64,000 nt of DNA from Thermococcus litoralis DSM 5473 (GTDB lineage Archaea; Methanobacteriota_B; Thermococci; Thermococcales; Thermococcaceae). Location: assembly GCF_000246985.2 (NCBI RefSeq), contig NC_022084.1:1530156-1594155 (forward strand), read 5' to 3'. The notes below the pieces were generated by a model. The model was not told the DNA's origin and did not search any database. It worked only from the letters and a program-made list of their open reading frames with translations. Every line of letters begins with the position of its first letter. Within the stretch, counting starts at the first letter, position 1. Below, piece after piece: positions 13,650-34,822 of the stretch. A program made the position numbers and the translations under genes.

Positions 13650-13666
13650 AAATAGAAAAGAGCAAA

Positions 13667-15109
13667 TTAGCCCTTTGCAACTCCAATAGGTCTCATCCTT
13701 GCCACCAGATTAGCTATTCCCGCCTCATGAACAACGTTAACAACGTTATCGACGTTCTTGTAGGCTCCGGGGGCTTCCTCTGCAACAACCCTCATGCTCG
13801 CTGCCCTAATGTATATTCCTCTCTGCATGAGCTCGTTTCTAAGCTTATCTCCTCTAAATTGTCTTGTAGCAGCATGTCTGCTCAAAACCCTTCCCGCACC
13901 GTGGCATGTGCTACCAAAGGTTTCTTTCATTGATCCCTCGGCTCCAGCAAGCACATAGCTTGCCGTACCCATTGAACCGGGAATTAAGACAGGCTGTCCC
14001 ACATTGCGGTAAGCTCTTGGCACAGCCTCATGCCCAGCGGGGAATGCTCTTGTGGCACCTTTTCTGTGAACTACAACTTTGACTTTCCTTCCATCAACCT
14101 CGTGCTCTTCAACTTTTGCTATGTTGTGGGCAACATCGTAAACTATGCTCATTCCTAAGTCCTCAGCCTTTTGCTTGAACACTTCCTCAAAGCTCTCCCT
14201 TACCCAGTGGGTAATCATCTGCCTGTTAGCCCATGCAAAGTTTGCCGCAGCTTTCATTGCACTGAAATATCTTTGCCCTTCCCCTGTCTGGAATGGGACG
14301 CTCACGAGTTCTCTGTCTGGCCATGGCACATTGTACTTCCTATTTGCCTTCTCCATGATCCTTAGGTAATCGCTTGCTACCTGATGACCAAGCCCTCTTG
14401 ACCCAGTGTGCACCATAACAACAACTTGTCCTTCAAACAAGCCATATACCTTAGCGATTTCCTCATTGAAGATTTTGTCAACTACCTGCACTTCCAAGAA
14501 GTGGTTTCCACTTCCTAGAGAGCCTAATTGTGGGGCCCCTCTTTGCTTTGCTTTTTGGCTTACTGCATTTGGATCCGCTCCTTCCATTCTCCCGTTCTCT
14601 TCTAGATGCTCTAGATCTTCCTTCCAGCCATAGCCGTTCTCCACAGCCCACTTTGCACCATCTGCAAGAACATCATCTAATTGCGTCCAGTGAAGCCTAA
14701 TCCTTCCTTTGCTTCCAAGTCCGCTTGGCACGTTTTTGAAGAGGGTATCGACGAGCTGTTTGATCTTTGGTCTAACTTCTTTCTCCGTTAAGTTCGTCCT
14801 AATAAGCCTGACGCCGCAGTTGACGTCATAACCCACGCCTCCGGGGCTTATAACGCCTTCTTTCACGTCAAAAGCCGCTACACCGCCGATTGGGAAACCA
14901 TAACCCTGATGACCATCGGGCATTACTATAGAATACTTATAAATCCCAGGAAGCATGGCCACATTTGCGGCCTGTTCGAGGGTTCTATCTTGTCTCATTT
15001 TTTGGATTAGTGTATCATCTGCATAAACTCTTCCCGGCACTCTCATTCTTTTATCGAACTTCGGTATCTCCCACCTGATCTTATCTATTCTTTTTAATGG
15101 GATCTCCAT
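13667..15109 (-). CDS. rtcB: tRNA-splicing ligase RtcB
   Basis: The 480-residue enzyme joins RNA 2',3'-cyclic phosphate and 5'-OH ends with GTP and Mn2+, completing tRNA splicing and RNA repair. The metal-site segment [15 protein letters not shown] gives Asp95 and Cys98; [10 protein letters not shown] and the [12 protein letters not shown] and HGAGR motifs follow, with the guanylylated His in the latter. I chose ATG 15109, which follows GGAGGTGAG; an earlier in-frame TTG at 15124 lies upstream of that site. Length fits the family without an intein. Archease, its known activator, lies 1.4 kb upstream on the same strand. Confidence 0.97.
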
Positions 15110-20563: not shown

Positions 20564-21850
20564 TCACTCGCCCTTCTGGATGGATATAACCATACCGGCA
20601 GCGACTGTTTGACCCATGTCTCTGATAGCGAATCTACCGAGCTGTGGTATCTCCTTAACTGGCTCGATGACCATTGGCTTGGTTGGTCTGAGGATCACGA
20701 TAGCTGAGTCACCGGTTTTGATGAATTGTGGGTTCTCCTCAACGATGTTACCGGTTCTTGGGTCGAGCTTAGCTAAGAGTTGCTCGAATCTAACTGCGAC
20801 CTGGGTTGTGTGAGCGTGGAGAACTGGTGTGTAACCGATTGTAATGGCTGTTGGGTGGTTGAGGACGATAATTTGGGCCTTGAATGTGTCCTTTGGTCTG
20901 ACAACTGTTGGTGGGTTGGTTGTGTGTCCAGCGACGTCACCTCTCTTTATGTCGTTCTTACCGACACCTCTGACGTTGAAACCAATGTTGTCACCTGGAA
21001 GAGCCTCTTCAAGTGGCTCGTGGTGCATTTCAATGCTCTTGACTTCACCTTGTATGGGCTTGTGGAAGATTGTTGATGCTGGCTCGAAGATGACTACATC
21101 TCCAACCCTAAGTCTTCCGGTTTCAACTCTACCGACTGGGACTGTACCGACACCCTTAATTGAGTAGACGTCTTGGATTGGGATTCTAAGTGGCTTGTCA
21201 ACTGGCTTCTCTGGCTCTGGGATTTGGTCAAGGGCCTCGATGAGTGTTGGGCCGTTGTACCAGGGCATCTTGTCGCTCTTCTTCACTACGTTGTCTCCTT
21301 CCCAAGCGCTGATTGGGATGACTGGGAAGTTCTTGTAACCGAGCATTTGCAAGAGCTTTGTAACCTGTGTTGCAACCTCTTTGAACCTCTTCTCGTCGTA
21401 GTTGACCATGTCCATCTTGTTAATCGCAACGATTATGTGGTTGATACCGAGTGTTCTTGCAAGGAATGCGTGCTCCTTTGTCTGTGGCATTACACCGTCT
21501 GTGGCTGCAACGACGAGAACTGCAGCGTCAGCCTGTGAAGCACCGGTAATCATGTTCTTAACGAAGTCTCTGTGACCTGGGGCGTCGATAATGGTGATGT
21601 ACCTATGTGGGGTCTCGAACTTGGTGTGAGCAACGTCGATTGTAATACCTCTTTCTCTCTCTTCCTTGAGTCTGTCCATAACCCAAGCGAACTTGAATGA
21701 CTTACCCTTTTCACCCATTTCCTCGAACTTCTTGATGATCTGCTCTGGAATGTTGGCTGTGTCGAAGAGCAATCTACCGATTGTTGTACTCTTTCCGTGG
21801 TCTACGTGTCCGATAAACACTATATTAACGTGTGGCTTCTCCTTTGCCAT
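20564..21850 (-). CDS. tuf: Translation elongation factor EF-1A
   Basis: The 428-residue GTPase delivers aminoacyl-tRNA to the ribosome. G1 is GHVDHGKST (about 14-22), followed by the GITIDVAH switch I (about 68-75), DAPGH (G3, about 91-95), NKMD (G4, about 147-150) and a G5 in ISAWEGDN. Two beta-barrel domains follow and end [20 protein letters not shown]. Strong codon bias makes several long false frames on the opposite strand. It leads the EF-1A, S10, tRNA-Ser unit. Confidence 0.98.
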
Positions 21851-21894
21851 CTTAACACACCTCCAAAGTTATGCCTAAGTCTATTCATCAAAGT

Positions 21895-21915
21895 GGGTTT
21901 TTAAAGCTTTCTCTA
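21895..21915 (-). promoter_or_regulatory. TATA box of the EF-1A operon
   Basis: On the minus strand GAGAAAGCTTTAAAAACC at about 21898-21915 has the form BRE plus TATA. It lies about 50-60 nt upstream of the EF-1A ATG, whose ribosome binding site GGAGGTG is at about 21858. Confidence 0.55.
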
Positions 21916-21922
21916 AACCTCA

Positions 21923-21961
21923 GCTCTCTCACGCGGGAAACCCGCATTCTTTTGAGAGAGC
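21923..21961. repeat. Large nested hairpin upstream of the EF-1A promoter
   Basis: GCTCTCTCA (21923-21931) pairs with TGAGAGAGC (21953-21961). Inside it GCGGG (21933-21937) pairs with CCCGC (21941-21945) around AAA. The structure lies upstream of the EF-1A TATA box and outside its transcript. It may be a protein-binding site, a terminator facing the other way, or a small structured RNA. Confidence 0.5.
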
Positions 21962-22024
21962 CTCATGAGTTCATGGTGGGATAAAAATTAGGGTTTAAAA
22001 AATTAACTAAAATTATACGGCTCG

Positions 22025-22039
22025 CTGTTAGAATAAGCT
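22025..22039 (+). repeat. Left member of an imperfect 15-bp repeat flanking the RiPP cluster
   Basis: CTGTTAGAATAAGCT here differs at only two positions from CTGTTAAGATAAGCT at 25386-25400, upstream of the cluster. The pair brackets the RiPP genes in the same orientation. Confidence 0.35.
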
Positions 22040-22121
22040 AACGAATAATATCAGAAACTTTATCCTAACAGTATTTGATGGGAACTAGGGTTCATTTACA
22101 TAAGCTCTCAATACCCAAAAG

Positions 22122-22700
22122 TTACTTTAATATTTCCACCAAAAACGCAATCTTATCATTGAAAAACGTATGAATGTTATGAGTCAAAAGTAACTTTAAT
22201 AAGCTTATGGAGCATGTTTTAAGATTGGATGGATCTAATATTATGACTTCGTTCTCTAAGCATATCTCCTTTTTTTCTAAAAATACTCCACATACAGCAT
22301 GTGAAGCCTCAAAAACACTTTCTCCTTTGTGAAGAAGCAAAAATACATATACTTCCCGTTCTGAGAATCCCAGTCCCCTCAATATAGAAGCCTCAAGAAT
22401 AGAAATTTGAAGACAATTCCCGCATCTTTGGCCTATGGTATTTAGAGGATGCAACTCATTATTATCTTTAATTGTTATAGTTGGGATGTAGCATATTTCT
22501 TTCAGTAGGTCTCTATGTAGCTTTTGAAGTCCTTTTTTATCATTCAACTTAATATTAGCAACCAGACGATTTGCAATATCGGGTATAATATACTTTGAAA
22601 TCGCCAATGGAGGAACTTTGTAAAGTATTATTCTTTGACCATTATTGCAAAGAATAACCCTACAAACGTCATCATGGAAACCGCTAATATAGTCAACCAT
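22122..22700 (-). CDS. Transglutaminase-like cysteine peptidase, putative RiPP leader peptidase
   Basis: A 192-residue protein with the layout of transglutaminase/papain-like peptidases: QRCGNCLQISILEASILRGLG (residues about 91-111, catalytic Cys96 likely), a His in EASHAVCGVF (His134) and an Asp in VIILDPSN (Asp156). This Cys-His-Asp spacing matches the Transglut_core fold also used by lasso-peptide B2 leader peptidases. I chose ATG 22700 because GGAGGGTGG lies just upstream. This start is inside the MFS gene, giving an unusual 73-nt overlap. Its position as last gene of the operon suggests that it cleaves the leader of the modified peptide; this is inference. Confidence 0.65.
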   Translation of the reverse strand: MVDYISGFHDDVCRVILCNNGQRIILYKVPPLAISKYIIPDIANRLVANIKLNDKKGLQKLHRDLLKEICYIPTITIKDNNELHPLNTIGQRCGNCLQISILEASILRGLGFSEREVYVFLLLHKGESVFEASHAVCGVFLEKKEICLENEVIILDPSNLKTCSISLLKLLLTHNIHTFFNDKIAFLVEILK

Positions 22701-23803
22701 GGATCCACCCTCCACAGCGCTCCCCATATTACGGGAGCAAAAATCCCAATTAAGCCGGGCAGAGTATTTAATGTGCCATAGGCAGTTGCTAAATACTCTT
22801 TTTGATGTTTGGAAGTATAAACGCTATATGCAATGTTTGAGAGAGCCTCTCCAAAGAGCCCACTTAAAGCCAAGAATATGAGAGAATACGTGGGTGCATA
22901 TTTGCTTAGGAGAGCAAACAGAGTCATCGTTATGCTATCCCCGAGGATATCTACAATAAAGGTCTTTTTGGGGCTGAGATAGTCCACCATAAAGCCCGCT
23001 ACGAAGTACGCTACCAATACGAAAAATCTCGAAGCAGAGAAAACATTTACAATTACATCTGAATCGAGTTTCATCCAAGAGTCCAAGTAGGGATAAAGGA
23101 AAGTGTTGAAACACGAGCTGATAAATGCAGACAGACAGAAAAGGAGTGCTAACGGTGCGAGAGGGGTGTTTAACAGTTTTCTGAAGTCAGAATTTTTGAT
23201 GCTACTTATAATGTTCTTCTTTATCTCTGATGTAACTCCATTTAATGGACGCTTTTTAGGAAGAGTTTCCACGAGCATCAATCGAAAGAGAGATAAAATA
23301 AATAACATCACTAACACGACGTACAAAACATATACAAAACCCAGCTTTTTAATTATCCAGTTCGTTAACATTGGACCAATAATCCATGCAACTGTGCTGG
23401 AGACATGAACCAATGAGAATACCCTACCCCGAATTTTTTCTTCTGTAGATTCAGCTATAAGTGCTGTAGTACCCGGACTAAAAAAGATTCCTATTGAGTG
23501 GAAGAGTATTAATGAAAGCATGATGGCGAGGGGATTTTTCATTAAAAGCAGTCCAAGAGTTGGTATCATGCTAAAAACAGACAACACTGCCATGGGTTTT
23601 CTCCCGAGACTATCGGCTATTAGTCCTCCAGAAAAGGAAAAGATTAAAGATAGGGCACCTGCTATAGACATTGAGAGTGCTAATTCAGAACTTCCCGCTT
23701 GATTGTTAACTAGTATAGGTAGGTATATGAAGAAATATGCTCTCACCATATTGATAGGAAAACCTGTTATTAGAATTATTAAGGGATTGTATTTGGGTTT
23801 CAT
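22628..23803 (-). CDS. Major facilitator superfamily transporter, probable peptide exporter
   Basis: A 391-residue protein with about twelve membrane segments. The MFS loop between helices 2 and 3 reads GGLIADSLGRKPM (about residues 59-71), and a related loop AGFMVDYLSPKKT occurs at the start of the second half (about 272-284). It lies 4 nt after the radical SAM gene, in the same operon as the precursor peptide. It most likely exports the mature product and may give immunity. Sugar or drug transport cannot be excluded from sequence alone. Confidence 0.82.
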   Translation of the reverse strand: MKPKYNPLIILITGFPINMVRAYFFIYLPILVNNQAGSSELALSMSIAGALSLIFSFSGGLIADSLGRKPMAVLSVFSMIPTLGLLLMKNPLAIMLSLILFHSIGIFFSPGTTALIAESTEEKIRGRVFSLVHVSSTVAWIIGPMLTNWIIKKLGFVYVLYVVLVMLFILSLFRLMLVETLPKKRPLNGVTSEIKKNIISSIKNSDFRKLLNTPLAPLALLFCLSAFISSCFNTFLYPYLDSWMKLDSDVIVNVFSASRFFVLVAYFVAGFMVDYLSPKKTFIVDILGDSITMTLFALLSKYAPTYSLIFLALSGLFGEALSNIAYSVYTSKHQKEYLATAYGTLNTLPGLIGIFAPVIWGALWRVDPWLTILAVSMMTFVGLFFAIMVKE

Positions 23804-23807
23804 TTCA

Positions 23808-24875
23808 TCACCGTAACACTGAAGGATCTATAAATTCATGAGGAAACACTCCTTCCTCGAACAACTTTTGACATACTGGAAAGGACGCAGTAAATGATTT
23901 GTACTCTTCATATGCAAATGCCGGACAAATATTTGCACAGTAGCTCCTTAGAATACATCCGCTGCAAATTCCTTGAAATTCATCAGGTTTTACTCTACGA
24001 AGCTCTCCTAAAAAACCTCTGCCACTATACCATATGTCTCTTAGGCTCTCTTCTTTTATATTTCCTATCACAGTCTCTGGGTATTCAATTCCTATGCCAC
24101 ATAACGACACTCCTCCATCGGGTAAAATCCCAAGCATTTTTGTATAGTTGCATGCCATCCTTGAAATGTTTAGGTATCTCCTTCCGTATTTTGCGAGCAG
24201 ATAATGAGGTACCATAGACCATATTTTGCCAGGATATTTATCATATAGCTGGATTAAATACTCTATGAGTGTTTGGTATTGGGAGACAGACAGGGAAATA
24301 TTATTATGCCTAGCTCGGCCTATTGGGAGTATTGGATTAAATTTCACTGCCTTTGCTCCTAAACTCATAATTAAATCCGTTATCTCAAAAATGGAGTGTA
24401 AGTTGCGATTGAATACAGAAACTACAACAACTGGGGGTATACCTAGATCTCTAAGTTTTGGTATTACATCTAAAACCCTTCTGTATACTCTCTTCCCATG
24501 CCTGAACGCATTAAATTCAACTTCTGAGGGAAAATCTAAACTTAAACTTATGTCGATCTCATATTTTGCGAGCTCTTTTAATAGGGGTGGAGTAATTAGG
24601 GTTCCATTGGTTTCCAGCACTGTTTTAACCTTGCTGTTGTTTGCGACTTTTATAAGGGTTATTGCTAGATCACTTCGCAAAAGAGGTTCTCCTCCAGATA
24701 TAAAAAGTGTATCAAGACCTAAGTCCAAGGCCTCATTAAAAGCATTAAGAAAATATTTGTCTTCCAGTTCGACCATAGGATATGTTCTACTAGCATTTAT
24801 CCAACAGTGCTCACATTGTAGGTTGCATGAACGTGTTAAATATACATGCAATATCTCTAGGGGTGGAGCATTCAT
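23808..24875 (-). CDS. Radical SAM/SPASM peptide-modifying enzyme
   Basis: The 355-residue enzyme has the radical SAM cluster motif Cys17-x3-Cys21-x2-Cys24 (SCNLQCEHC), a GGEPLL motif and a TIM-barrel core. A C-terminal SPASM domain has seven cysteines (242, 259, 304, 307, 313, 317, 335) that would bind auxiliary Fe-S clusters. Relatives install thioether or C-C crosslinks in ribosomal peptides (sactipeptides, ranthipeptides, PQQ, mycofactocin). ATG 24875 overlaps the PqqD stop (ATGA). With the Cys-rich precursor upstream, the likely reaction is thioether crosslinking of its cysteines; the exact chemistry is not readable from sequence. Confidence 0.88.
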   Translation of the reverse strand: MNAPPLEILHVYLTRSCNLQCEHCWINASRTYPMVELEDKYFLNAFNEALDLGLDTLFISGGEPLLRSDLAITLIKVANNSKVKTVLETNGTLITPPLLKELAKYEIDISLSLDFPSEVEFNAFRHGKRVYRRVLDVIPKLRDLGIPPVVVVSVFNRNLHSIFEITDLIMSLGAKAVKFNPILPIGRARHNNISLSVSQYQTLIEYLIQLYDKYPGKIWSMVPHYLLAKYGRRYLNISRMACNYTKMLGILPDGGVSLCGIGIEYPETVIGNIKEESLRDIWYSGRGFLGELRRVKPDEFQGICSGCILRSYCANICPAFAYEEYKSFTASFPVCQKLFEEGVFPHEFIDPSVLR

Positions 24876-25180
24876 TCACATGCCTCCTTATCGTTTTGGA
24901 GAAGGCCTAACTTTGACAAATGTTTAATAAACTCTAAAATGTCTTTGGTTATTATTTCAATGTCAATTTCTTCGTCTATGTCTTTCTTTACGTAATTTGC
25001 AATCTCTTTTATAGTTAAAGAGCCATTACTGTACTTTAGGACTAACTCCCCCATTTTATTAACCGTAAATATCCTTCCTGTAGAGTAATCATAGCATAAT
25101 GCATAATCTGAATAAGAAATTATATGGAGTGGTTTTATTTTGGGCTTATAAAAAGGAGAAAATAGAAGAGACTCTTCCAC
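24872..25180 (-). CDS. PqqD-like RiPP recognition element protein
   Basis: A 102-residue protein with the PqqD fold: an N-terminal strand region, the core YDYSTGRIFTVNKMGELVLK and YSNGSLTIKEIANYV (about 30-64; compare N-x-x-g-x-x-v-l-k-y-x-dG-x-x-Ti-x-ei), then a helix ILEFIKHLSKLGLL. It begins with GTG at 25180, seven nt after GGAGGT (25187-25192). It sits between the precursor peptide and the radical SAM enzyme and probably binds the precursor's leader and presents it to the enzyme. Confidence 0.78.
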   Translation of the reverse strand: MEESLLFSPFYKPKIKPLHIISYSDYALCYDYSTGRIFTVNKMGELVLKYSNGSLTIKEIANYVKKDIDEEIDIEIITKDILEFIKHLSKLGLLQNDKEACE

Positions 25181-25207
25181 AGTTCATACCTCCGCTACTG
25201 CTTTACT

Positions 25208-25300
25208 TCACGTAACGCTAGGTCCGTTACAACAACCCCCTCCGGAACATGCCCTAACAATTTTGGTAAGTTCTTCTATTTTCGGCTTTTCATACTTCAT
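25208..25300 (-). CDS. RiPP precursor peptide, 30 residues
   Basis: A short ORF missed by size cut-offs. It has a leader-like MKYEKPKIEELTKIVRA followed by a core-like CSGGGCCNGPSVT with three cysteines and five glycines. The ATG at 25300 is preceded by an excellent GGAGGTGG, better than most genes in the window. The KPKIEEL element is of the kind bound by PqqD-like domains. It is the first gene of an operon with PqqD, radical SAM/SPASM, MFS and transglutaminase-like peptidase genes. Product structure, activity and cleavage site are unknown; cleavage just before the first Cys or after Arg-Ala is plausible. Confidence 0.8.
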   Translation of the reverse strand: MKYEKPKIEELTKIVRACSGGGCCNGPSVT

Positions 25301-25334
25301 CTAACCACCTCCGTTAGTTTTATAATTATTCTAT

Positions 25335-25381
25335 ATTATTATATTTATTTTTTTTGTTAACTTTTAGTTGTTAACTTTTAG
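25335..25381 (-). promoter_or_regulatory. RiPP operon promoter with tandem 14-bp repeat
   Basis: The 14-mer TTGTTAACTTTTAG occurs twice in perfect tandem (25354-25367 and 25368-25381). On the minus strand it lies directly upstream of an AT-rich stretch (AAATAAATATAATAAT, about 25338-25353) that can serve as TATA box, with the predicted start some 10-15 nt before the precursor's ribosome binding site. The repeat is well placed for an activator or repressor. Confidence 0.55.
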
Positions 25382-25385
25382 AATA

Positions 25386-25400
25386 CTGTTAAGATAAGCT
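25386..25400 (+). repeat. Right member of an imperfect 15-bp repeat flanking the RiPP cluster
   Basis: CTGTTAAGATAAGCT is a 13/15 match to 22025-22039 in the same orientation. It could mark duplicated target sequence or a shared regulatory element. Confidence 0.35.
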
Positions 25401-25528
25401 GATGGGCAATACTAGAAGTCTTGCTTAATATTCTAAACAGTGAATTCTTAGGCATCAAAGGTAAATTTCCGAACGAATAGTGTCTATTGGGATTACTACA
25501 CAAAATTCACGAAGCCTAGAATTCAAAG

Positions 25529-25643
25529 TTATTTTCTAACCTCAAACCAGCCCTCTCCTCTTAGCGTTTTTTCTTTCCAGCAGGGAAGTGTTATCTTTGA
25601 GTATTCCAAATTTGGATCGTATACAACTACAACTTTATATACT
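25529..25643 (-). pseudogene. Short coding remnant without a start
   Basis: A minus-strand frame reads VYKVVVVYDPNLEYSK, then ITLPCWKEKTLRGEGWFEVRK, and stops at 25529-25531. It has no start codon and no ribosome binding site. Its end (W-K-E-K-x-L-RGEGWFE) vaguely recalls WERYLGRGLWFES in the neighbouring decayed gene, so it may be a fragment of a related gene. Confidence 0.3.
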
Positions 25644-25664
25644 TAAAATTTTTTAGACTCCAAA

Positions 25665-26499
25665 TTAGAGCAGTGAATAGACTTTGTACGCCCTAATCTG
25701 TCCTGTATAGAAATCTTTCACGTATACCGTTTTGTTTACCACTACTACCTCTCCTGGGGTGTAATTTAACCTCTTGCATGCAAGCTTTATTAAATTCTTA
25801 GCATAAACGCACAGTCCTCTTTTTTCATCCCCCTGGGGGATTCACGAAGGAATACACCACCGCAACATACTTTTCTCCAACTCCAACTCTAACAAGCATT
25901 CTTAAATTTTCCCCTTTCCAAGGTTTTGCAGTTCTAATGCCTTTTTCGAGTTTGTGCTCCTTTAATAGATAGACATACCCCTCGGTAGTAGCAACATAGC
26001 TTAAATCTCCTTTATCCTTAACGTCTGTTATTGATCCGGTTTTTGGGCAGAAATATTTGAAATTTCCATTTCTACTTCAATCCAATAGACACACCCATCT
26101 CCAAGTATAATTTTCCCTTCATGATAAGACTCAAACCAGAGTCCTCTCCCAAGGTATCTCTCCCACTTTTTGTTCAATGCATTATCAAGAAAGACCATGT
26201 CGGTGCTGGAGCGTGAGGGTCCCGGGATATCCAGCTATTAGGAGGACCCCCTCAGGAAAGCAGAAGTATTCACCAAAGAACCCCTTAAGCGTGTATGTCT
26301 TCCCATCCACAGTAAAATTTACATAATTTTCCAGCCCGTTTCTCACTTCTTTAACCTCAATTTTCGCTGGACATTTCTCTAAATTTTCCTCTCCAAATTT
26401 GGGCATATTCTCGACTCTTGTTTCAATAGCCCTTGAGAAAAATACTGCATAGATTAGAAGAACAAGAACTGCTCCAAGGAGATACTTTTGAAACCGCAT
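25665..26499 (-). pseudogene. Decayed gene for a membrane-anchored protein (several frameshifts)
   Basis: The start is intact: ATG 26499 after GGGGGCCTGAG encodes MRFQKYLLGAVLVLLIYAVF, a membrane anchor, and a soluble region with FTVDGKTYTLKGFFGEYFC. Coding then continues only by changing frame near 26215-26230, again near 26060-26075, and again at a G-run near 25828-25842, and ends at TAA 25665-25667. Recognisable pieces are DMVFLDNALNKKWERYLGRG, FKYFCPKTGSITDVKDKGDL, and GLCVYAKNLIKLACKRLNYT. About 278 codons in all. The family is not recognised. Three frame changes favour true decay over sequencing error. Confidence 0.6.
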
Positions 26500-26574
26500 C
26501 TCAGGCCCCCACAAAGGCGTTCCAACCATATGGTTAATAACATCAAAACCCAAATATCTTTTGGTGACAAAGAA

Positions 26575-27168
26575 ATGGGCCTCTATATCTTTACACCGGA
26601 GGATCTTTTGAGATATGAGACAATAACCAAACACCAGCTGGAAGTGATTAAAGAGTCTATATTAAAGAAAGAAGACATTCTTGTAGTTGGGACAAGCAGG
26701 GCAGGTAAAACAAAGCTTATCGAAGCGATGATCCATCTCCTTCCAGAAGAATGGAAAATAGCTGTTGTCACTGCCTATGGGGAGTTTAAGCCTTTCAAGA
26801 AAAAAATCCACGTGATAGACACCGAGTTCAATGAAAAGAGCACCAAGCAGAGGACTAAGGAGGTTATAGAGGAGATTAAGAAACTCAATCCCGATTACGT
26901 TGTTATAGACACTCTCCATACAATTGACATTCCATATCTGCTGGACAAAATAATCGATGATTATCCGTTTATAATTTCCTCACTTGTTATTTCAAGGGAT
27001 TTGATTGAGGAAATAAAACACTGGCTTAGAATAGACGACAAAACCCTTGCAAGGTTTGAGCTGGTTATCGAGTTATATAGGGACATAAAGAGCGGCCTTA
27101 GAAGGGTGAACGCAATCTATCGGGTTGTTCAAAAAGAAGGAAAAATAAAGCTAGAGAAAGTTGCTTAA
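26575..27168 (+). CDS. P-loop NTPase related to VirB11/GspE-type secretion ATPases
   Basis: A 197-residue protein with Walker A VVGTSRAGKTKLIEAM (about residues 38-53) and a Walker B-like DYVVIDTLHT (about 108-117), plus the ITKHQLEVIKESILKKEDIL lead-in that resembles the start of secretion ATPase domains. It is much shorter than full type II/IV secretion ATPases and lacks their N-terminal domain, so it may be a stand-alone relative. ATG 26575 has a GGTGA element 10 nt upstream. It overlaps the convergent aminotransferase by 4 nt. Confidence 0.6.
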   Translation: MGLYIFTPEDLLRYETITKHQLEVIKESILKKEDILVVGTSRAGKTKLIEAMIHLLPEEWKIAVVTAYGEFKPFKKKIHVIDTEFNEKSTKQRTKEVIEEIKKLNPDYVVIDTLHTIDIPYLLDKIIDDYPFIISSLVISRDLIEEIKHWLRIDDKTLARFELVIELYRDIKSGLRRVNAIYRVVQKEGKIKLEKVA

Positions 27169-28310
27169 ACTTTTGCCTTTAACTCTTCTATCACTTCTTT
27201 TAGGTTCTGGAGCATCTCTTCGATGTCTTCAAATGTCATGTATCCCATGTTTCCAATTCTGAAGGTTTTCTCCTTTATGCCCTCACCGTAGCCCTTAGCA
27301 AGCTCGAATCCTCTCTCACGCATTGCGTTATAAACTTGATCTCCCTTGATGCCCTCCGGTGTAAGTACTGCCGTTATTGTGGGGCTCTCGTAACCTGGCT
27401 CTGCGAGGATTTCTAGGCCAATCTCTCTTACTCCATTCCTTATCATCTCGCTCCTCTTTCTGTACATGTCGAGCCACTTCTCTTTCCCGCCCATCTTTTC
27501 AATTATTCTAAGCACAACGTTTAGGCCAAACTCTTGGGGCATTGCCGGGGTTGAAGGCGGCCCCTGCTTCTCGTTTTGGACCTTAATGTACCTTGGAATG
27601 TCAAAATACCAGCCTCTCTCTTCCATTTTGTGAGCTATTTCAATGAATTCTTCACTGAAAGCTCCAATAGCTAAGCCTGGAGGAACTCCAAAGGCCTTTT
27701 GGGAACTTCCAAAGACAACATCGATTCCCCATTTGGTGAACTTTATGTCAGCCCCACCCATTGCACTCACAGCATCCACGAACACAAGCTTATTGTGCTC
27801 CTTTGCCACCTTGGCTAACTCCGGCAGTGGATTAAGGACACCTGTAGAAGTTTCGTTATATGTTATTGTTACGGCTTCAACATCTGGGTTTTTCTTTAAT
27901 GCCTCGTCAAGATCCTCTGGTTTGACAGCCTTTCCAGGTTCATATTCCAAAGTTACTGCTTTTCTCCCATTGCTCTCTACAACTTGCTTGTACCTTTTTC
28001 CAAAAGCCCCGATTATTGTCACGAGAACTTTTCCGCCTTTGGAAACACCGTTTCTTATGCTTGCTTCCATCACTCCAGTACCGGAGCTTGGGAAGAGAAG
28101 AACTTCTCCTTTCTCAACTTCAAGGAACTTCTTGAGTCTCTCAACGGTATCGACGTGCATCTGCTTATACTCCTTTGCTCTGTGACTAAACATCTGGACT
28201 TTCATTATCTCAAGAACTTCTGGAAAACAGGCAACTGGACCGGCGGTGAAAAGTTTGTATTTTGGCTTTACTATCTCGTAGACTTCCCCATAAGCATCCT
28301 CAAACTGCAT
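27165..28310 (-). CDS. Class V aminotransferase (serine-pyruvate / alanine-glyoxylate type)
   Basis: The 381-residue PLP enzyme has the class V pattern: LFTAGPVACFPEV near the start, FPSSGTGVMEA for phosphate binding (about 73-83), VFVDAVSAMGG with the PLP Asp (about 177-187) and the PLP lysine in VFGSSQKAFGVPPGL (about 200-214). RIGNMGYM near the end holds the carboxylate-binding Arg. The likely role is alanine-glyoxylate or serine-pyruvate transamination. The start follows GGTGATACT. Confidence 0.9.
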   Translation of the reverse strand: MQFEDAYGEVYEIVKPKYKLFTAGPVACFPEVLEIMKVQMFSHRAKEYKQMHVDTVERLKKFLEVEKGEVLLFPSSGTGVMEASIRNGVSKGGKVLVTIIGAFGKRYKQVVESNGRKAVTLEYEPGKAVKPEDLDEALKKNPDVEAVTITYNETSTGVLNPLPELAKVAKEHNKLVFVDAVSAMGGADIKFTKWGIDVVFGSSQKAFGVPPGLAIGAFSEEFIEIAHKMEERGWYFDIPRYIKVQNEKQGPPSTPAMPQEFGLNVVLRIIEKMGGKEKWLDMYRKRSEMIRNGVREIGLEILAEPGYESPTITAVLTPEGIKGDQVYNAMRERGFELAKGYGEGIKEKTFRIGNMGYMTFEDIEEMLQNLKEVIEELKAKV

Positions 28311-28558
28311 AGTATCACCCAGTTGAATGACATTTCATAATTATAAAAACTTTATCTTAACACTTTAGCTTAACCATCGGTAGTACAAAAAATGAAAATT
28401 GCATCATCTTCCTGGTTATTTAGAGGAAATGACATGGAGATCTTTTTGCTGGTGTCTAGAAAGCAGGATAAAGTTAACATAATGGCATCTTTGATAACTT
28501 ATACTCCCTAAACATTGAGTTTTTAACCCATAGAGCATCTCTAACATGGACTAACCAA

Positions 28559-28576
28559 TTGGAAATTTATTTCCAA
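28559..28576. promoter_or_regulatory. Upstream NrpR-type operator (GGAA-N6-TTCC)
   Basis: TTGGAAATTTATTTCCAA is a perfect palindrome with 7-bp arms (TTGGAAA/TTTCCAA) around TTTA. The core GGAA-ATTTAT-TTCC has the published methanogen NrpR operator form GGAA-N6-TTCC. It lies about 185 bp upstream of the predicted operon start and could give cooperative binding or looping with the second site. Confidence 0.65.
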
Positions 28577-28714
28577 AATTATAAGCCAAATAATGAAAAA
28601 TCCAAATTTTCAATGCATTTTTGATTATTAAGTGGATAATAGAAGCTAAAATGCAATTTATTGCCATTTTTAAAACGAATTTTAAACTTCAAAACAATAA
28701 TATCAACCAAAAAC

Positions 28715-28751
28715 TTTTTATAATCTAAAATGTAATGGAAATGTATTTCCA
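28715..28751 (+). promoter_or_regulatory. Operon promoter with NrpR-type operator at the start site
   Basis: TATA element TTTATAAT lies at 28717-28724. TGGAAATGTATTTCCA (28736-28751), a perfect 6-bp-arm palindrome with core GGAA-N6-TTCC, covers the position where transcription should begin (about 28745). A repressor bound here would block initiation. The regulator gene is the last gene of the same gene row (33827-34822). Confidence 0.7.
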
Positions 28752-28771: not shown

Positions 28772-29500
28772 ATGAAACCTACGATTGGAATAACAGGGGC
28801 TTGGAGTGTGGAAACTTGGGGACATTCGGAAGAACATGGGGGCTATTTCTACGTTGGAAGTTATTACTCAACGGCAGTATCAAAAAGCGGAGGCTTGCCT
28901 TTTATAATTCCACTTCCCCATAAAAACGCAGATTTAGGGGAATTTGCGGAGGAAGTTGTCTCTAAAGTAGATGCTATTGTATTTAGTGGTGGAGGTGATG
29001 CTAAGAGATTCAAAAAAGAAGAATTGCCAAGCTTATATGATCAACAGCCATTTAGGTATTCATTTGAGAAAGAACTTATTTTGAAGGCATGGAAAAGAGA
29101 TTTGCCGATATTAGGTATATGTCGGGGTTACCAAATGCTTGTAGAGGTTTTTGGCGGAAAGCTAATGGACGGGACGATTGATGGCCACAAACAGAATCTT
29201 CCAGGATATGAACCTTGGCATTCTCTACGTATAAAGGAAGGCAGTAAATTCGAAACTCTTGTTGGAACAAGGGAAATTGAAGTTAATAGTTTCCACATAC
29301 AAGCAGTTGAAAAGGTGCCCAAGGGATTTGAGGCCGTAGGATGGAGTGATGATGGAATCATAGAAGTAATAGAAGCTATTGACAAAGACTTCGTTTTTGG
29401 TATGCAATTTCACCCGGAGGAAAGGTACGACGTTGATCCTCATGCCAAGGTGATATTTGACCGTTTTGTTGAAAAAGCCATAGAGTATGGTAGGAGGTAA
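28772..29500 (+). CDS. Class I glutamine amidotransferase-like gamma-glutamyl hydrolase (peptidase C26, PuuD-like)
   Basis: A 242-residue stand-alone class I amidotransferase. It has an oxyanion-loop segment VFSGGGDAKRF (about 70-80), nucleophile Cys117 in LGICRGYQML, and His214/Glu216 in MQFHPEERY. This form matches PuuD-type gamma-glutamyl hydrolases, which release glutamate from gamma-glutamyl amines or peptides. ATG 28772 follows GGGAGGTTGTATC. It leads the operon with the AtuA-like, transporter and racemase genes, so it probably opens a gamma-glutamylated or peptide-like substrate. Confidence 0.85.
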   Translation: MKPTIGITGAWSVETWGHSEEHGGYFYVGSYYSTAVSKSGGLPFIIPLPHKNADLGEFAEEVVSKVDAIVFSGGGDAKRFKKEELPSLYDQQPFRYSFEKELILKAWKRDLPILGICRGYQMLVEVFGGKLMDGTIDGHKQNLPGYEPWHSLRIKEGSKFETLVGTREIEVNSFHIQAVEKVPKGFEAVGWSDDGIIEVIEAIDKDFVFGMQFHPEERYDVDPHAKVIFDRFVEKAIEYGRR

Positions 29501-29505
29501 TCAAC

Positions 29506-30870
29506 TTGAAAGAGGTTAAAATTTTATCCCCTACTGGTCATCTGGGTTTCACTCCCATCGAGGAAGAGAGCTTTTGGAAAGGCGTGGACAGAAAACCGGA
29601 TTTCATATGTGCAGACTCCGGCAGCTGCGATATTGGCCCTTACCCATTAGGGGCCGATGTTGCTGCAAGTCCAGAGGAATGGCAAAAGCATGATCTGGAA
29701 CTTATGCTTCTGGCTTCACGAGAACTTGATGTCCCCATGATCATTGGTTCTGCATCAGATACCGGAACAAACAGGGGAGTTAATCAGTTCGCAAGAATCA
29801 TAAAAGACTTGGCAAAAAAACATGGACTTAAACCCTTCAAAATGGCCAAAATTTATTCTGATGTTCAGAAAGATGTTCTTTTAAAGCGTCTTGAAAAAGG
29901 AGAAGTTATAGAGGGTCTTCATGGGAGACCCCCATTGAATAAGGAAATTCTGATGAAAACAGACCATATCGTAGCAGTTATGGGAGTAGAGCCGTATATA
30001 AAGGCCCTTGAGGAAGGAGCAGATGTCATAATCGCAGGTAGATCTTCAGACGTTGCAGTTTTTGCTGCTCCTGCACTTTGGAGTGGGATTCCAGAAGATA
30101 TAGCGTTCTACGCAGGAAAAGTTTTGGAATGTGCTTCTTTCGTTGCAGAGCCCTTTGCAGGTAAAGAATCTGTCCTAGGAATATTGAGGGAAGATGAAGT
30201 AATAATCGAGCCTATGAGCGATTATCAACGAGCTACCCCAGAATCAGTGGCAAGTCATGCAATGTACGAAAGAATTGATCCGTTTATAGAATGGCTTCCA
30301 GGCGGATATATCGACATGAGAGGTTGTGTTTATGAAGCTATAGACGAGAAAAGAACCAGGGTCAGAGGTTCGAAATTCTACAGGACTCCTGAATACAAAA
30401 TAAAACTTGAAGGGTCTGGAAAAGTCGGCGAACGTTGTTTTATGATAGTAGGGATAAGAGATCCATACTTAATAGCAAATCTGGATAGGGTAATAGAATG
30501 GTCGCGGAAAAAAGTGAAGGAAAGGTTTGGTGAAAGTGGATACGAACTCTACTACCATGTTTATGGCAAGAATGGTGTCATGGGAGAGTTAGAGCCTATA
30601 AAAAACCCAACTCCTCATGAGGTTGGGATTATTGTAGAGGGTATAGCTCCAGACCTAGAGATGGCCAAAGAGCTTACATATTTAGCGGGGAGGAACTTTT
30701 TATATGCCCGACTAGTTGGGGTAAAAGGAACGGCCGGTGCTGCAGCTTTTATTTCTGATGAGGTTCTTGTGGCTCATCCGGCATATGAATGGACAATAAA
30801 TCACCTGATAAAGGTAAACGATCCGCTTGAGCTATTTGAGATTAAGTTTGAAACCGTTGGAGGGGAATGA
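29506..30870 (+). CDS. AtuA-like protein (DUF1446, acyclic terpene utilisation family)
   Basis: The 454-residue protein matches the AtuA/DUF1446 family: LSPTGHLGFTPIEEESFWKG at the start, ADSGSCDIGPYPLG (about 36-49), GSASDTGTN, the AGRSSDVAVFAAPAL segment and a conserved VHGRP-like GLHGRPPL. In Pseudomonas AtuA is needed for citronellol breakdown, but the biochemical activity of this family is unknown, and here the context is amino-acid related. It starts with TTG 29506 after AGGAGG. It is followed directly by a DUF4387 gene, its usual partner. Confidence 0.82.
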   Translation: MKEVKILSPTGHLGFTPIEEESFWKGVDRKPDFICADSGSCDIGPYPLGADVAASPEEWQKHDLELMLLASRELDVPMIIGSASDTGTNRGVNQFARIIKDLAKKHGLKPFKMAKIYSDVQKDVLLKRLEKGEVIEGLHGRPPLNKEILMKTDHIVAVMGVEPYIKALEEGADVIIAGRSSDVAVFAAPALWSGIPEDIAFYAGKVLECASFVAEPFAGKESVLGILREDEVIIEPMSDYQRATPESVASHAMYERIDPFIEWLPGGYIDMRGCVYEAIDEKRTRVRGSKFYRTPEYKIKLEGSGKVGERCFMIVGIRDPYLIANLDRVIEWSRKKVKERFGESGYELYYHVYGKNGVMGELEPIKNPTPHEVGIIVEGIAPDLEMAKELTYLAGRNFLYARLVGVKGTAGAAAFISDEVLVAHPAYEWTINHLIKVNDPLELFEIKFETVGGE

Positions 30871-30871
30871 T

Positions 30872-31234
30872 ATGAAAAAAGTTCCTCTTGTAGATTTAGC
30901 AAAGACAATAAGAAGCAAAAATGCCGGTGTTGACCATATAACATTCGATATTATCTTCAGAGATAGGGAAGTTTACGAGTACATCAAACAGAATCAACTC
31001 ATAACTAAAGAGATGGTAGCCCAAATTTACAACATATCTCCTGAAAAAATAGTTCTTTTTGTTTATTTTGACCCGGCAAAAGCAATTAAATTTACAATAC
31101 GCCGTTCTAAGCCAAGCGGAAGTCCTGGTGAGACTGATGTTATGGGGGCTCAACAATATCCTCCATTATTTGAAATTTCTCTTACGTTACCTGAGAGTTT
31201 ATTAAAAGAAGAAGGAGGTGGTAGCAAAGGTTGA
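30872..31234 (+). CDS. DUF4387 family protein, partner of the AtuA-like protein
   Basis: A 120-residue protein that pairs with AtuA/DUF1446 proteins in many genomes, and as a C-terminal domain in some. Typical is VPLVDLAKTIRSKNAGVDHI (about residues 4-23) with ITFDIIFRDREVYEYI, and near the end RPKPSGSPGETDVMGAQQY-like sequence (here RRSKPSGSPGETDVMGAQQ). ATG 30872 follows TTGGAGGGG, one nt after the previous stop. The function is unknown; it may be a subunit of the AtuA-like enzyme. Confidence 0.78.
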   Translation: MKKVPLVDLAKTIRSKNAGVDHITFDIIFRDREVYEYIKQNQLITKEMVAQIYNISPEKIVLFVYFDPAKAIKFTIRRSKPSGSPGETDVMGAQQYPPLFEISLTLPESLLKEEGGGSKG

Positions 31235-31306
31235 GAACACGCTTCTACAGGATGCTAAAATCATGTCATGAGACAAAATGGTATTAAAAGAGGAGGGATA
31301 TGAAAA

Positions 31307-32698
31307 ATGGCGGTTCCTGACTGGTTGAAAAACCCGCATGGGTATTTTATTATATTCGTCCTAATATTAATTGCCACATTGGCAACATGGACACTTCCGG
31401 CGGGTGAGTTTGATAGATTCAAAGACCCCAATAGTGGAAAAACAATTGTAGACCCTGAATCATTTCACTATGTAGATCCCAATCCAGTAGATCCATTTGA
31501 AATGCTTCAAGCCATTCCAACAGGCTTTAAACAAGCTGCTGGTATTATAGCCTTTGTTTTCATAATTGCAGGTGCTATTCAAATAATCCGTTCTACTGGC
31601 GCACTGGACGCGGGAATTATTGCAATGGTAAACAAAATGCAAGGAAAAGATACGCCGTTGCTGCTGGCAATAATGTTTGTATTTGCTCTATTGGGTTCAG
31701 TATTCGGATTTGCTGAGGAAACAATACCTTTAATCCCATTGGGAGTGGCTATGGCACTGGCACTTGGTTATGACAGGGTTGTAGGTTTTCACATCGTTAG
31801 AACAGCAGCATGGATAGGGTTTGCAGGAGCAATGCTTAATCCATTTACAATTGGTGTTGCACAAAGCATAGCAGAACTTCCCCTCTATTCCGGGCTGTGG
31901 TACAGAATAATCTGCTTTTTGGTGTTCTTTACAATAGGTGCAGTTTTTATTCTGAAATACGCCAGAGATGTGAGAAAAGACCCAAAGAAGAGCATACTAT
32001 ATGGATACAAGGGAGAAGAGAGGGCAGAATTTAATCTGAACTATGAGCAACAAGAGCTAACTCCCACGAGGAAATTGGTACTTTTAGTTCTGTTTGGAGG
32101 TATACTGCTCCAGATATATGGAGTTATAGAATATGGATGGTATACCACTGAAATTTCCGCTCTATTTTTAGGACTTGGCATAATAGCAGGGCTAATCGCA
32201 AAAATGAATCCCAGTGAACTCTTTGGAGAATTCGTAAAAGGAGCAAAAGGTGTTACATACGGAGCGCTGATTATTGGGTTTGCTAGAGCAATTGTGGTTA
32301 TATTGAGTGAAGGAAGGGTGCTAGATACGATAATTCATGGACTTGCTACGCCATTAGGAAGTGTTGGTTCAGTCAGTGCTGCAGTGTTGATGTTCCTAAT
32401 ACAGTCAGCCATAAACTTTTTTATAGGTTCAGGAAGTGGACAAGCTGCGGCGACAATGCCTATTATGACTCCATTATCTGATCTCATTGGAGTTACAAGA
32501 CAAACGGCAGTGCTGGCATTCCAGTTTGGTGATGGTATTACAAACATGTTCTACCCAGCAATGATTTACTACTTGGTATTTGCAGACATACCCTACGACA
32601 GATGGGTACGCCATATCTGGAAGCTGGTGGTTTATCTAACAATTGCAGGAGCTATTTTGGTCGCAATTGCCGCTGCTATAAACTATGGGCCATATTAG
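31307..32698 (+). CDS. YfcC/DcuC family transporter
   Basis: A 463-residue membrane protein with about twelve hydrophobic segments. It has the YfcC start (H-G-Y-F-I-I-F and TWTLPAGEFDRF), GFAEETIPLIPLGVAMALALGYD (about 130-152), FINFFIGSGSGQAA-like NFFIGSGSGQAAATMPIM and a FGDGITNMFYPA segment near the end. The family includes anaerobic C4-dicarboxylate carriers and arginine/ornithine or peptide transporters. In this operon it probably imports the substrate of the amidotransferase or the racemase. ATG 31307 follows GAGGAGGGAT. Confidence 0.83.
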   Translation: MAVPDWLKNPHGYFIIFVLILIATLATWTLPAGEFDRFKDPNSGKTIVDPESFHYVDPNPVDPFEMLQAIPTGFKQAAGIIAFVFIIAGAIQIIRSTGALDAGIIAMVNKMQGKDTPLLLAIMFVFALLGSVFGFAEETIPLIPLGVAMALALGYDRVVGFHIVRTAAWIGFAGAMLNPFTIGVAQSIAELPLYSGLWYRIICFLVFFTIGAVFILKYARDVRKDPKKSILYGYKGEERAEFNLNYEQQELTPTRKLVLLVLFGGILLQIYGVIEYGWYTTEISALFLGLGIIAGLIAKMNPSELFGEFVKGAKGVTYGALIIGFARAIVVILSEGRVLDTIIHGLATPLGSVGSVSAAVLMFLIQSAINFFIGSGSGQAAATMPIMTPLSDLIGVTRQTAVLAFQFGDGITNMFYPAMIYYLVFADIPYDRWVRHIWKLVVYLTIAGAILVAIAAAINYGPY

Positions 32699-32731
32699 GC
32701 CCATTAAATTTTCTTATTTGGAGGGAGTTGT

Positions 32732-33805
32732 ATGTTCCCTGCACTTGAAATAAACTTGTCTGCTATTGAAGAGAATGCCAGGGAAGTTGTAAGATTTTGT
32801 GACTCTTATGGAATGCAGGTTGTTGGAGTGACCAAGGGTGTGTGTGGTGATCCAAAAATAGCAAAAGCAATGTTAAATAGTGGAATTCATATATTTGGAG
32901 ATTCTAGAATTCAAAACATTGAAAAAATGAGAGAAAATAATATCAATGCAAGATTCATGCTAATTCGATCCCCTATGGTTAGTGAGATAGAGAAAGTTGT
33001 GGAATTAGCGGATTACAGCATTAATAGTGAGCTGTCTGTTTTGAAGAAGCTGTCGGAAGCTTCGCTAGAACATAGAAAGTCCCACAAAGTGATAATAATG
33101 GTTGATGTGGGAGATAGGAGAGAGGGGATAATGCCCAGTGATTTTGTTCCATTTCTTAGAGAGGCCAGAAAGTTAAGAGGCATTGAAATAGTTGGAATTG
33201 GGACAAATGTTGGTTGCTTTGGAGGAGTACTCCCAAGTCCAAAAAATCATGATATACTTAGAAAACTGAAGGAAAAGGCAAAATCCATTCTGGGTACTAA
33301 CAATTTAATAATTTCCTCGGGGGGAACCGTAGTTTTGAATCTTTTAGAGGAAAGACAGTCGTCATATGGGATTAGTCAACTCAGGATTGGGGAAGGAATA
33401 CTTCTAGGAACTGATTCCACAGGCAATAGGGTTATCCCTTGGCTTAGACAGGACACGTTTACACTAGAGGCTGAAATAATTGAGGTTAAGTGGAAACCTT
33501 CTTTGCCAGAAGGATCAATGGGCAAAGATGCCTTCGGTAACACTCCTATTTTTGAGGATAAAGGAACTAGAAAGAGGGCAATATTAGCCATAGGAAAGCA
33601 AGATATAGAGGTGAGGGGATTATTTCCGCTTTATAACGGCATTGAAGTTCTTGGGGGTAGCAGTGATCATACAATAATTGACATAACGGAATCTGAAGTG
33701 CCCTTAACAGTAGGAGATACAGTGAAATTCAAATTAAGCTATTCAGCAATGCTCAGAGGGATGACTTCTCCATATGTGCACAAGGTATATATTTACAAGA
33801 ATTAA
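32732..33805 (+). CDS. Alanine/ornithine racemase family PLP enzyme
   Basis: The 357-residue enzyme has an alanine-racemase-type barrel with PLP Lys35 in VVGVTKGVCGDPKIAKAM, followed by HIFGDSRIQNIEKMR and the barrel strand RFMLIRSPM. This pattern fits the ornithine/alanine racemase (Orr) group better than catabolic alanine racemase. The end domain has the segment YNGIEVLGGSSDHTIID. ATG 32732 follows GGAGGGAG. It probably interconverts D and L forms of an amino acid brought in or released by the operon products. The substrate is unproven. Confidence 0.83.
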   Translation: MFPALEINLSAIEENAREVVRFCDSYGMQVVGVTKGVCGDPKIAKAMLNSGIHIFGDSRIQNIEKMRENNINARFMLIRSPMVSEIEKVVELADYSINSELSVLKKLSEASLEHRKSHKVIIMVDVGDRREGIMPSDFVPFLREARKLRGIEIVGIGTNVGCFGGVLPSPKNHDILRKLKEKAKSILGTNNLIISSGGTVVLNLLEERQSSYGISQLRIGEGILLGTDSTGNRVIPWLRQDTFTLEAEIIEVKWKPSLPEGSMGKDAFGNTPIFEDKGTRKRAILAIGKQDIEVRGLFPLYNGIEVLGGSSDHTIIDITESEVPLTVGDTVKFKLSYSAMLRGMTSPYVHKVYIYKN

Positions 33806-33826
33806 CAAAATATTAGGGTGAGCGGG

Positions 33827-34822
33827 ATGAGTGACGATGAGTTTCCAATGACGGTTGTGGAGATTCTAAGGATTCTTTATTTTTCTGAAAGTCCAAAAAC
33901 TTCAGTAGAATTAGCAAAATTCTTAAAAAACCGAGGTATAAATGTGGATTCAAGAACAGTAAGGTACCATATCTCCCGCCTAGAAGAGAAAGGGTTTATT
34001 AAAAGATTAGGCAGAAAAGGCGTAAAACTCACGGAACGTGGGGTAAATGAAGTTCGGAGATTGTTAGTCTATGAAAGGATAGGGATACCCTCCATTGAAA
34101 TTGAGAAACTGATCACAAATAGTGATTATGACATAGACAAAAACAAAGGAAAAGTTATGGTAAATGCCATAATGGTACCAAAAGACAAATATGATTTGGT
34201 AGTCCCCTTGTTATTGGATATCTCAAAAACAAATGTTATAACATCTCCCTTGCTGGCAATTCTCGATGAAAAAGAGAGTATCTGGCATTTTGAAGTTAAG
34301 GAAGGACATGTTGGGATATTGGGGATTTCCTCTAGAACGTATGACATTATCTTTCAAAAGAACGGGATTTGCCTCCAATCCACGGCTACGGGACTATACC
34401 AATTAGAGAACAACACCCCTAAAGGGTTCATGGAAATAATATCCCACCTAGGAACTACAATAAGCCCGGGAGAGCTTTTAATTAGGGGAGGCTACACTTC
34501 AGTTCATAAAGTCGCAAGTACGGGAAGTGGATACGTGACAGCGGCAATAAAGACTTTCTCTTCGTTTCTCTACGAAGATACCATTAAGATTTTGGAAAAA
34601 CTGAAAAAGAATAATATAAGTGGAATAGCTGAACACAGTTGTGTAATACCAGAAAACAAAAGGGTGAACATTATGGATAAAAACAAAGGCTATCTTGTTG
34701 TTTATGGTGGGGCCAATTATTTTGCTCCCATAGTGGAAACTGGGGTTTCAAAAAAGCTTGAAATTGCTAGAGATCTTTATGATATTCAAAAAATGAAAAA
34801 ACCAGAAAAAGTTCTCAAATAA
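33827..34822 (+). CDS. NrpR-like transcriptional repressor (winged helix + DUF128)
   Basis: A 331-residue protein. An N-terminal winged helix (about 1-75; VDSRTVRYHISRLEEKGFI) is followed by one or two DUF128/NrpR regulatory domains. The diagnostic part is GTTISPGELLIRGGYTSV and ASTGSGYVTAAIKTF (about 205-240) with a final GYLVVYGGANYFAPIVETGV. In methanogens NrpR represses nitrogen genes by binding GGAA-N6-TTCC and is released by 2-oxoglutarate. Two sites of this form precede the gene row this protein ends. ATG 33827 follows GGTGAGCGGG. Confidence 0.85.
   Translation: MSDDEFPMTVVEILRILYFSESPKTSVELAKFLKNRGINVDSRTVRYHISRLEEKGFIKRLGRKGVKLTERGVNEVRRLLVYERIGIPSIEIEKLITNSDYDIDKNKGKVMVNAIMVPKDKYDLVVPLLLDISKTNVITSPLLAILDEKESIWHFEVKEGHVGILGISSRTYDIIFQKNGICLQSTATGLYQLENNTPKGFMEIISHLGTTISPGELLIRGGYTSVHKVASTGSGYVTAAIKTFSSFLYEDTIKILEKLKKNNISGIAEHSCVIPENKRVNIMDKNKGYLVVYGGANYFAPIVETGVSKKLEIARDLYDIQKMKKPEKVLK

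Follow-up and report, generated by a model that had tools for sequence, protein, structure and literature searches.

Two palindromes with the core GGAA-N6-TTCC stand at the promoter of a six-gene operon of Thermococcus litoralis DSM 5473, and the explanation that we consider, as a whole, highly probable is that they are operators of an NrpR-like repressor encoded by the operon itself, which would be released by a ligand and would act locally, including on its own gene. The window, i.e., the whole 64,000-nucleotide stretch of DNA analyzed here, belongs to a 99.9% complete genome that was searched as a single contig of 2,215,172 bases (2.2 Mb). Both palindromes were found where a preliminary description of this DNA had placed them: the putative upstream operator O1 is the 18-bp TTGGAAATTTATTTCCAA at 28559-28576 and the putative promoter operator O2 the 16-bp TGGAAATGTATTTCCA at 28736-28751, neither being assigned a strand. 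Their core is the form reported for the methanogen NrpR operator (PMC2723118), as that description had also stated.

A TATA-like box, TTTTATAAT, lies at 28716-28724 on the plus strand within a promoter block that is conserved in relatives, with O2 beginning approximately 12 bp downstream of it. Judged from its distance only, transcription would begin near 28746, inside O2, in line with the predicted overlap of the second palindrome with the start; O1 lies approximately 140 bp upstream of the box and approximately 170 bp upstream of the expected start. We also considered whether O1 serves the divergent aminotransferase gene and rejected this, since that gene is provided with a TATA-like box of its own (28342-28349); the distance from O1 to the start of that gene, 249 bp in the window and approximately 125 bp in the relative G078, was likewise counted against it.

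The operon and its NrpR-like regulator

The operon (28772-34822) consists of six genes in one direction, all on the plus strand, separated by gaps of 5, -2, 72, 33, and 12-21 bases. Gene 1 (28772-29500) encodes a hydrolase of the class I amidotransferase fold, Peptidase_C26 (PuuD-like; Pfam PF07722, E = 1e-44; PDB PuuD 6vtv, E = 1e-16). Because it scores 71 bits against the NCBIfam equivalog cut-off of 266 bits for PuuD (gamma-glutamyl-GABA hydrolase), gene 1 is kept here at the level of the fold, without an exact function. Genes 2 (29506-30870) and 3 (30869-31234) encode an AtuA-family protein (PF07287) and a DUF4387 protein (PF14330), homologues of citramalate lyase subunits A (CmlA) and B (CmlB), respectively, each with a PDB match. 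Gene 4 (31307-32698) encodes a DcuC/YfcC-type membrane carrier (PF03606, E = 8.5e-85) that reaches 342 bits with the YfcC model, under its cut-off of 500, and gene 5 (32732-33805) a PLP-dependent racemase-like protein (PF01168) related to the ornithine racemase Orr, failing the curated NCBIfam Orr cut-off (411 versus 480 bits).

The last gene (33818-34822, with GTG 33818 or ATG 33827 as start codon) encodes, as had been recognized earlier, a winged-helix protein of 331 residues with an NrpR regulatory domain (NRD): the winged helix HTH_12 (PF08461) was detected with an E value of 5e-16 and the NRD (PF01995) with one of 8e-58. The protein, presumably active as a dimer, has one NRD stretch, and its gene is the sole NRD gene of the genome. 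A profile including haloarchaeal relatives matched the NRD structure of MJ0159 (3nek, E = 5e-13). Matches in the PDB came from profiles only, as phmmer with the single regulator sequence gave none there; used against genome contigs, the single sequence returned two close relatives and no others. An AlphaFold model built from three sequences had a pLDDT of 44 and was left out of the evidence.

Some features of the neighboring DNA were recorded on the way. At 22122-25180, on the minus strand, lies a peptide-modification-like cassette made up of a radical SAM/SPASM protein, a PqqD-like protein, an MFS carrier, and a 201-residue protein, all identical or nearly so to their counterparts in G078 (L028:494-3552); over 21630-28358 taken together, identity to G078 is 95%. 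The near-identity of the cassette, set against 84% DNA identity in the adjoining operon, suggests a recent exchange between the two species. A 149-residue reading frame at 26185-26634 on the minus strand corresponds to one of 298 residues in G078 (L028:4037-4933), so that in the window genome it looks like a truncated or broken gene.

Related regulators and palindromes in haloarchaea

A plasmid search found haloarchaeal NRD proteins at 25-27% identity; the single-NRD proteins of the loci, which come from eight distinct plasmid regions of related organisms, are 20-25% identical to the window regulator. The NRD gene adjoins an agmatinase-family gene in 8 of 8 distinct loci (L036, L037, L038, L043, L044, L045, L046/L050, and L047), and a sodium:solute symporter, aminotransferase, nitrilase, or ABC transporter is found nearby. 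Promoters in these loci carry TGGCAATNTATTGCCA-like palindromes, i.e., the window 16-mer with one base changed per half, and TGGCA-N6-TGCCA was observed 13 times versus 0.01 in shuffles. When a general frame (TGG[CA]A-N6-T[GT]CCA or CGGAA-N6-TTCCG) was counted, 16 of 18 sites proved intergenic, with intergenic DNA making up 18.6% of the sequence. The sites lie at -1 from the symporter start in five loci, 62 bp from agmatinase in three, -6 from the ABC operon in two, and 9-10 bp from an aminotransferase-NrpR operon in two. In the last two loci, a second, distinct NRD gene stands at the end of the aminotransferase operon, and the palindrome before its start codon is an exact GGAA-N6-TTCC (CCGGAAACTACTTTCCGG and CCGGAAGTCAACTTCCGG, one per locus); having been seen in one locus, it was looked for in the other as a test and was present there too.

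The agmatinase-locus proteins (e.g., WP_276248999.1, WP_254546781.1, and WP_138247248.1) have the same two-domain build as the window regulator and palindromes of the 16-bp frame at the promoters of neighboring genes for catabolism and transport. They differ from the window in that the third operator base is C/G, not A/T, that the sites adjoin or overlap start codons, and that amine-type genes replace the CmlAB-like set. The second haloarchaeal group (WP_138247253.1 and WP_255171354.1) shares with the window the exact GGAA-N6-TTCC and a regulator gene that is last in its operon, but has the flank CCGGAA...TTCCGG, an aminotransferase target, and a single operator. A winged-helix, single-NRD regulator is thus paired with a palindrome of one frame in two distant lineages, which makes the NrpR-like protein very likely the owner of O1 and O2, and, since the pairing falls in the regulator's own neighborhood in both, supports local autoregulation, with the limitation that the haloarchaeal part of this support is drawn from plasmid regions of related organisms. 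That the haloarchaeal pairs stand beside other nitrogen-compound genes further suggests a range of uses for this regulator family that goes well beyond nitrogen fixation. We propose the grouping "single-NRD local regulators" for proteins with a winged helix and one NRD whose genes adjoin a catabolic operon and whose target promoters carry a 16-bp palindrome (TGG[A/C]A-N6-T[T/G]CCA or CGGAA-N6-TTCCG); all of these features are found in the window, the relatives G078 and G083, and the eight haloarchaeal loci.

Two further observations concern the haloarchaeal loci themselves. The NRD paralogues within one locus (L036:7971-8984 and 14049-15095; L050:6756-7763 and 12819-13850) appear to read GGAA-N6-TTCC versus GGCA-N6-TGCC, which would make them a natural specificity pair, with GGKG in the wing of one paralogue and PGKG or PGQG in that of its partner. 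The agmatinase genes with their single-NRD regulator and TGGCA-N6-TGCCA (L036-L038, L043-L047, and L050) may form an amine-use regulon that is apparently undescribed.

Relation to the methanogen nitrogen repressor

The consensus GGAA-N6-TTCC and the targets of methanogen NrpR have been described (PMC2723118), its release by 2-oxoglutarate has been summarized (PMC11957540), and two operators at one promoter are known for nif of M. maripaludis, to go by the title of Lie et al. 2005 (cited in PMC2723118). Haloarchaea have been described as being without a conserved NrpR-type master regulator (PMC6801745), and among the titles and abstracts searched there was no paper dealing with NrpR-like regulators in Thermococcales. 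The window regulator resembles the methanogen proteins (Methanococcus maripaludis MMP0607, M. jannaschii MJ0159, and Methanosarcina NrpRI/II) in its winged helix PF08461 and NRD PF01995 and in the operator core, of which there are two at the window promoter, conserved in relatives. Unlike in the methanogens, the window genome has no two-NRD protein and no NrpRI/NrpRII-type pair, its single NRD having no partner gene; its regulator is local, apparently autoregulated, and devoted to a single operon, and its operator is extended to TGGAAAT..ATTTCCA.

The shared domain families and operator core (PMC2723118), together with the known release by 2-oxoglutarate (PMC11957540), would fit a direct functional NrpR for which 2-oxoglutarate is the nitrogen/carbon signal and which lifts repression of the operon when nitrogen is limiting, a reading that agrees with ours on the operators and departs from it in the ligand. 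We regard it as rather unlikely. The genome has no second NRD gene; the genome scan found no GGAA-N6-TTCC core nearer than approximately 14 kb to glnA (1271525), and no ammonium transporter (Amt) gene was found in the window genome, both of which support a use outside nitrogen assimilation; the earlier proposal had been one outside nitrogen fixation. Moreover, the haloarchaeal relatives sit in agmatinase loci, not in nitrogen-assimilation loci, and, as a difference that may or may not bear on the ligand, the 13 single-NRD proteins have SS-x-T-x-D in the segment aligned with ICAVTLDG of MJ0159. The lack of a site near glnA, of an ammonium transporter, and of a second NRD, together with the amine-catabolism loci of the relatives, argues against the system being simply the methanogen nitrogen switch in a new host, and a compound of the operon's pathway is at least as likely as 2-oxoglutarate to be the ligand of the repressor.

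Conservation and spacing of the putative operators

The order of the six genes is retained in G078, and in G083 the same genes are seen together across two contigs; in G082, the fourth NRD-bearing genome, a contig end falls inside the regulator gene. The 16-bp core of O1 is identical in G078 (L028:6816-6831) and G083 (L031), and the counterparts of O2 are TGGAAATAAACTTCCA and TGGAAATAAATTTCCA, respectively. O1 and O2 are exactly 176 bp apart, start to start, in the window, G078, and G083, and the distance from O2 to the ATG is likewise constant. The 160-base spacer between them is 48% identical to that of G078 ungapped and 67% with 22 gap positions, and 44% identical to that of G083 ungapped and 71% gapped (22-26 gap positions over both comparisons), the indels compensating one another in length; the TATA block is 8 bp further from O2 in G078 and G083, with the O1-O2 spacing unchanged. 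Constancy of the 176 bp in a diverged spacer with a shifted TATA block hints at a constraint on the distance between the operators, such as would be needed for looping or cooperative binding. Because the G078 and G083 spacers are 88% identical, this is effectively one independent comparison, and the fixed spacing could be due to chance.

The position of O1 far upstream of the promoter would also suit an activator or auxiliary site, i.e., a regulator that activates from O1 and represses from O2. This dual role we consider improbable: approximately 140 bp upstream of the TATA-like box is far for activation by direct contact in archaea, and, although the TATA block has shifted, the expected start lies under O2 in each of the three genomes, which is the usual archaeal layout for repression.

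Distribution and rarity of the palindrome

Of the 94 Thermococcaceae genomes, 4 have an NRD gene, all four being of the window's genus, and it was found nowhere else among 115 genomes of the phylum. The preliminary description had spoken of Thermococcales in general; an NrpR-type protein and operators are indeed present, but that scope was too broad. It had also called for a genome-wide scan for GGAA-N6-TTCC. The bare core is unremarkable and too common to mean anything alone, with 5 occurrences in the window versus 1.9 expected (7 of 100 shuffles reach 5) and 73 across the genome versus 100 for the reversed control. The exact 16-mer TGGAAATNTATTTCCA, on the other hand, occurs twice in the 2.2-Mb genome, both times at the operon promoter.

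The pattern TGGAAATNNATTTCCA, whose reversed control had 0 matches across the 94 Thermococcaceae genomes, was found in four of them, three with the NRD gene, always at the operon promoter, and one with a stray site (copies per genome: G000, 2; G078, 1; G083, 2; G093, the stray, 1; all others, 0); O2 of G078 differs from the pattern by one further change. The pattern is thus present in 3 of 4 NRD-bearing versus 1 of 90 NRD-lacking genomes. The same palindromes being common in unrelated intergenic DNA had been named as what would speak against the proposal; since TGGAAATNTATTTCCA is exact only here and TGGAAATNNATTTCCA is nearly confined to this promoter, the extended palindrome is not common in this way.

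Short palindromes are also used by winged-helix regulators of other families, so that the sites might belong to another Thermococcaceae regulator, with the NrpR-like gene in the operon by accident; the absence of the palindrome from the 90 NRD-lacking genomes, save the stray site, and the recurrence of the same frame beside related regulators in haloarchaea make this very improbable. That the palindromes are due to chance, or are a structural element of DNA or RNA such as a hairpin rather than protein sites, would accord with the AT-rich intergenic DNA and with a core motif no commoner than expected in the genome, but is scarcely credible for an exact extended 16-mer found twice at one promoter and nowhere else in the genome, strongly conserved inside diverged DNA, and constantly spaced.

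The CmlAB-like pair and the substrate of the operon

Gene 2 matched chain A of PDB 9erq/9evf (citramalate lyase subunit A) with an E value of 1.7e-86 over residues 4-449, and gene 3 matched chain B (subunit B) with one of 1.7e-23. As with citramalate lyase CmlAB, the operon has adjacent CmlA and CmlB homologues, both chains being matched nearly full length, and this homology makes a C-C-cleaving step on a hydroxy-acid-like intermediate likely. Unlike for CmlAB, the genome is without glutamate mutase: its E subunit (PF06368) is absent, and a glutamate-mutase pathway in the window genome was rejected. Whereas CmlAB cleaves citramalate to pyruvate and acetate, the substrate of the pair could be another hydroxy acid. 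The preliminary description had proposed a glutamyl or amino-acid compound for the operon, which is only partly right, as the homology of genes 2 and 3 to CmlAB (9erq/9evf) points to a hydroxy-acid-like intermediate.

In a Prevotella nigrescens record (L040:2859-12235), AtuA and DUF4387 genes are flanked by methylaspartate ammonia-lyase on one side and a two-subunit fumarate-hydratase-type enzyme on the other; the cluster also has glutamate mutase, and its neighbors differ from the window operon. This gene setting, as expected of the methylaspartate pathway, fits the citramalate lyase reading of the AtuA and DUF4387 pair. Downstream of mal, a DUF1446 gene without a known function has been noted (PMC4682846), and no mention of DUF4387 was found in the literature searched. 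The proteobacterial neighbors of the closest AtuA relatives (HMGL-like/DmpG, alpha/beta hydrolase, short-chain dehydrogenase, sigma-54 activator, TctC receptor, and ABC transporters) did not identify the substrate.

Proposed mechanism and implications

The sites, their specificity to one promoter, their conservation and spacing, their co-occurrence with the regulator, and the haloarchaeal pairing of regulator and operator are observed; binding, repression, looping, ligand, and substrate are what we infer in proposing the following. The NrpR-like protein would bind both O1 and O2; occupancy of O2, on the transcription start, would block initiation, and O1, 176 bp upstream, would strengthen repression, probably through cooperative contact or a loop in the DNA. 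The repressor would be released when its NRD takes up a small molecule, which may be 2-oxoglutarate, as in methanogens, but is more likely to be connected with the substrate of the operon. Release would switch on import by the YfcC-type carrier, hydrolysis by the C26 protein, stereochemical adjustment by the Orr-like racemase, and C-C cleavage by the CmlAB-like lyase, the nutrient handled being amino-acid-like or hydroxy-acid-like, and would also switch on the regulator's own gene.

More tentatively, we suggest as a plausible but far from settled generalization that an archaeal single-NRD family has kept the NrpR operator frame (a 16-bp palindrome with A or C as third core base) and changed ligand and target. 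Each member would adjoin the catabolic operon it controls and sense a pathway compound, 2-oxoglutarate sensing in methanogens would be one specialization of a broader amino-compound-sensing fold, and the Thermococcus switch would work via a fixed 176-bp DNA loop.

In methanogens, NrpR has the known role of a master repressor for nitrogen. The methanogen-type theme of operator and regulator is known, and the operon-local single-NRD variant appears to be new, with good comparative support for its operators. Those of the window and of the haloarchaea define a testable regulator-operator code for proteins that have only been named automatically, as "NrpR regulatory domain-containing protein." They show where the putative regulated promoter of a hyperthermophile's CmlAB-like lyase operon lies, assign a candidate regulon to each single-NRD protein, and make it possible to ask directly which compounds the NRD evolved to detect.
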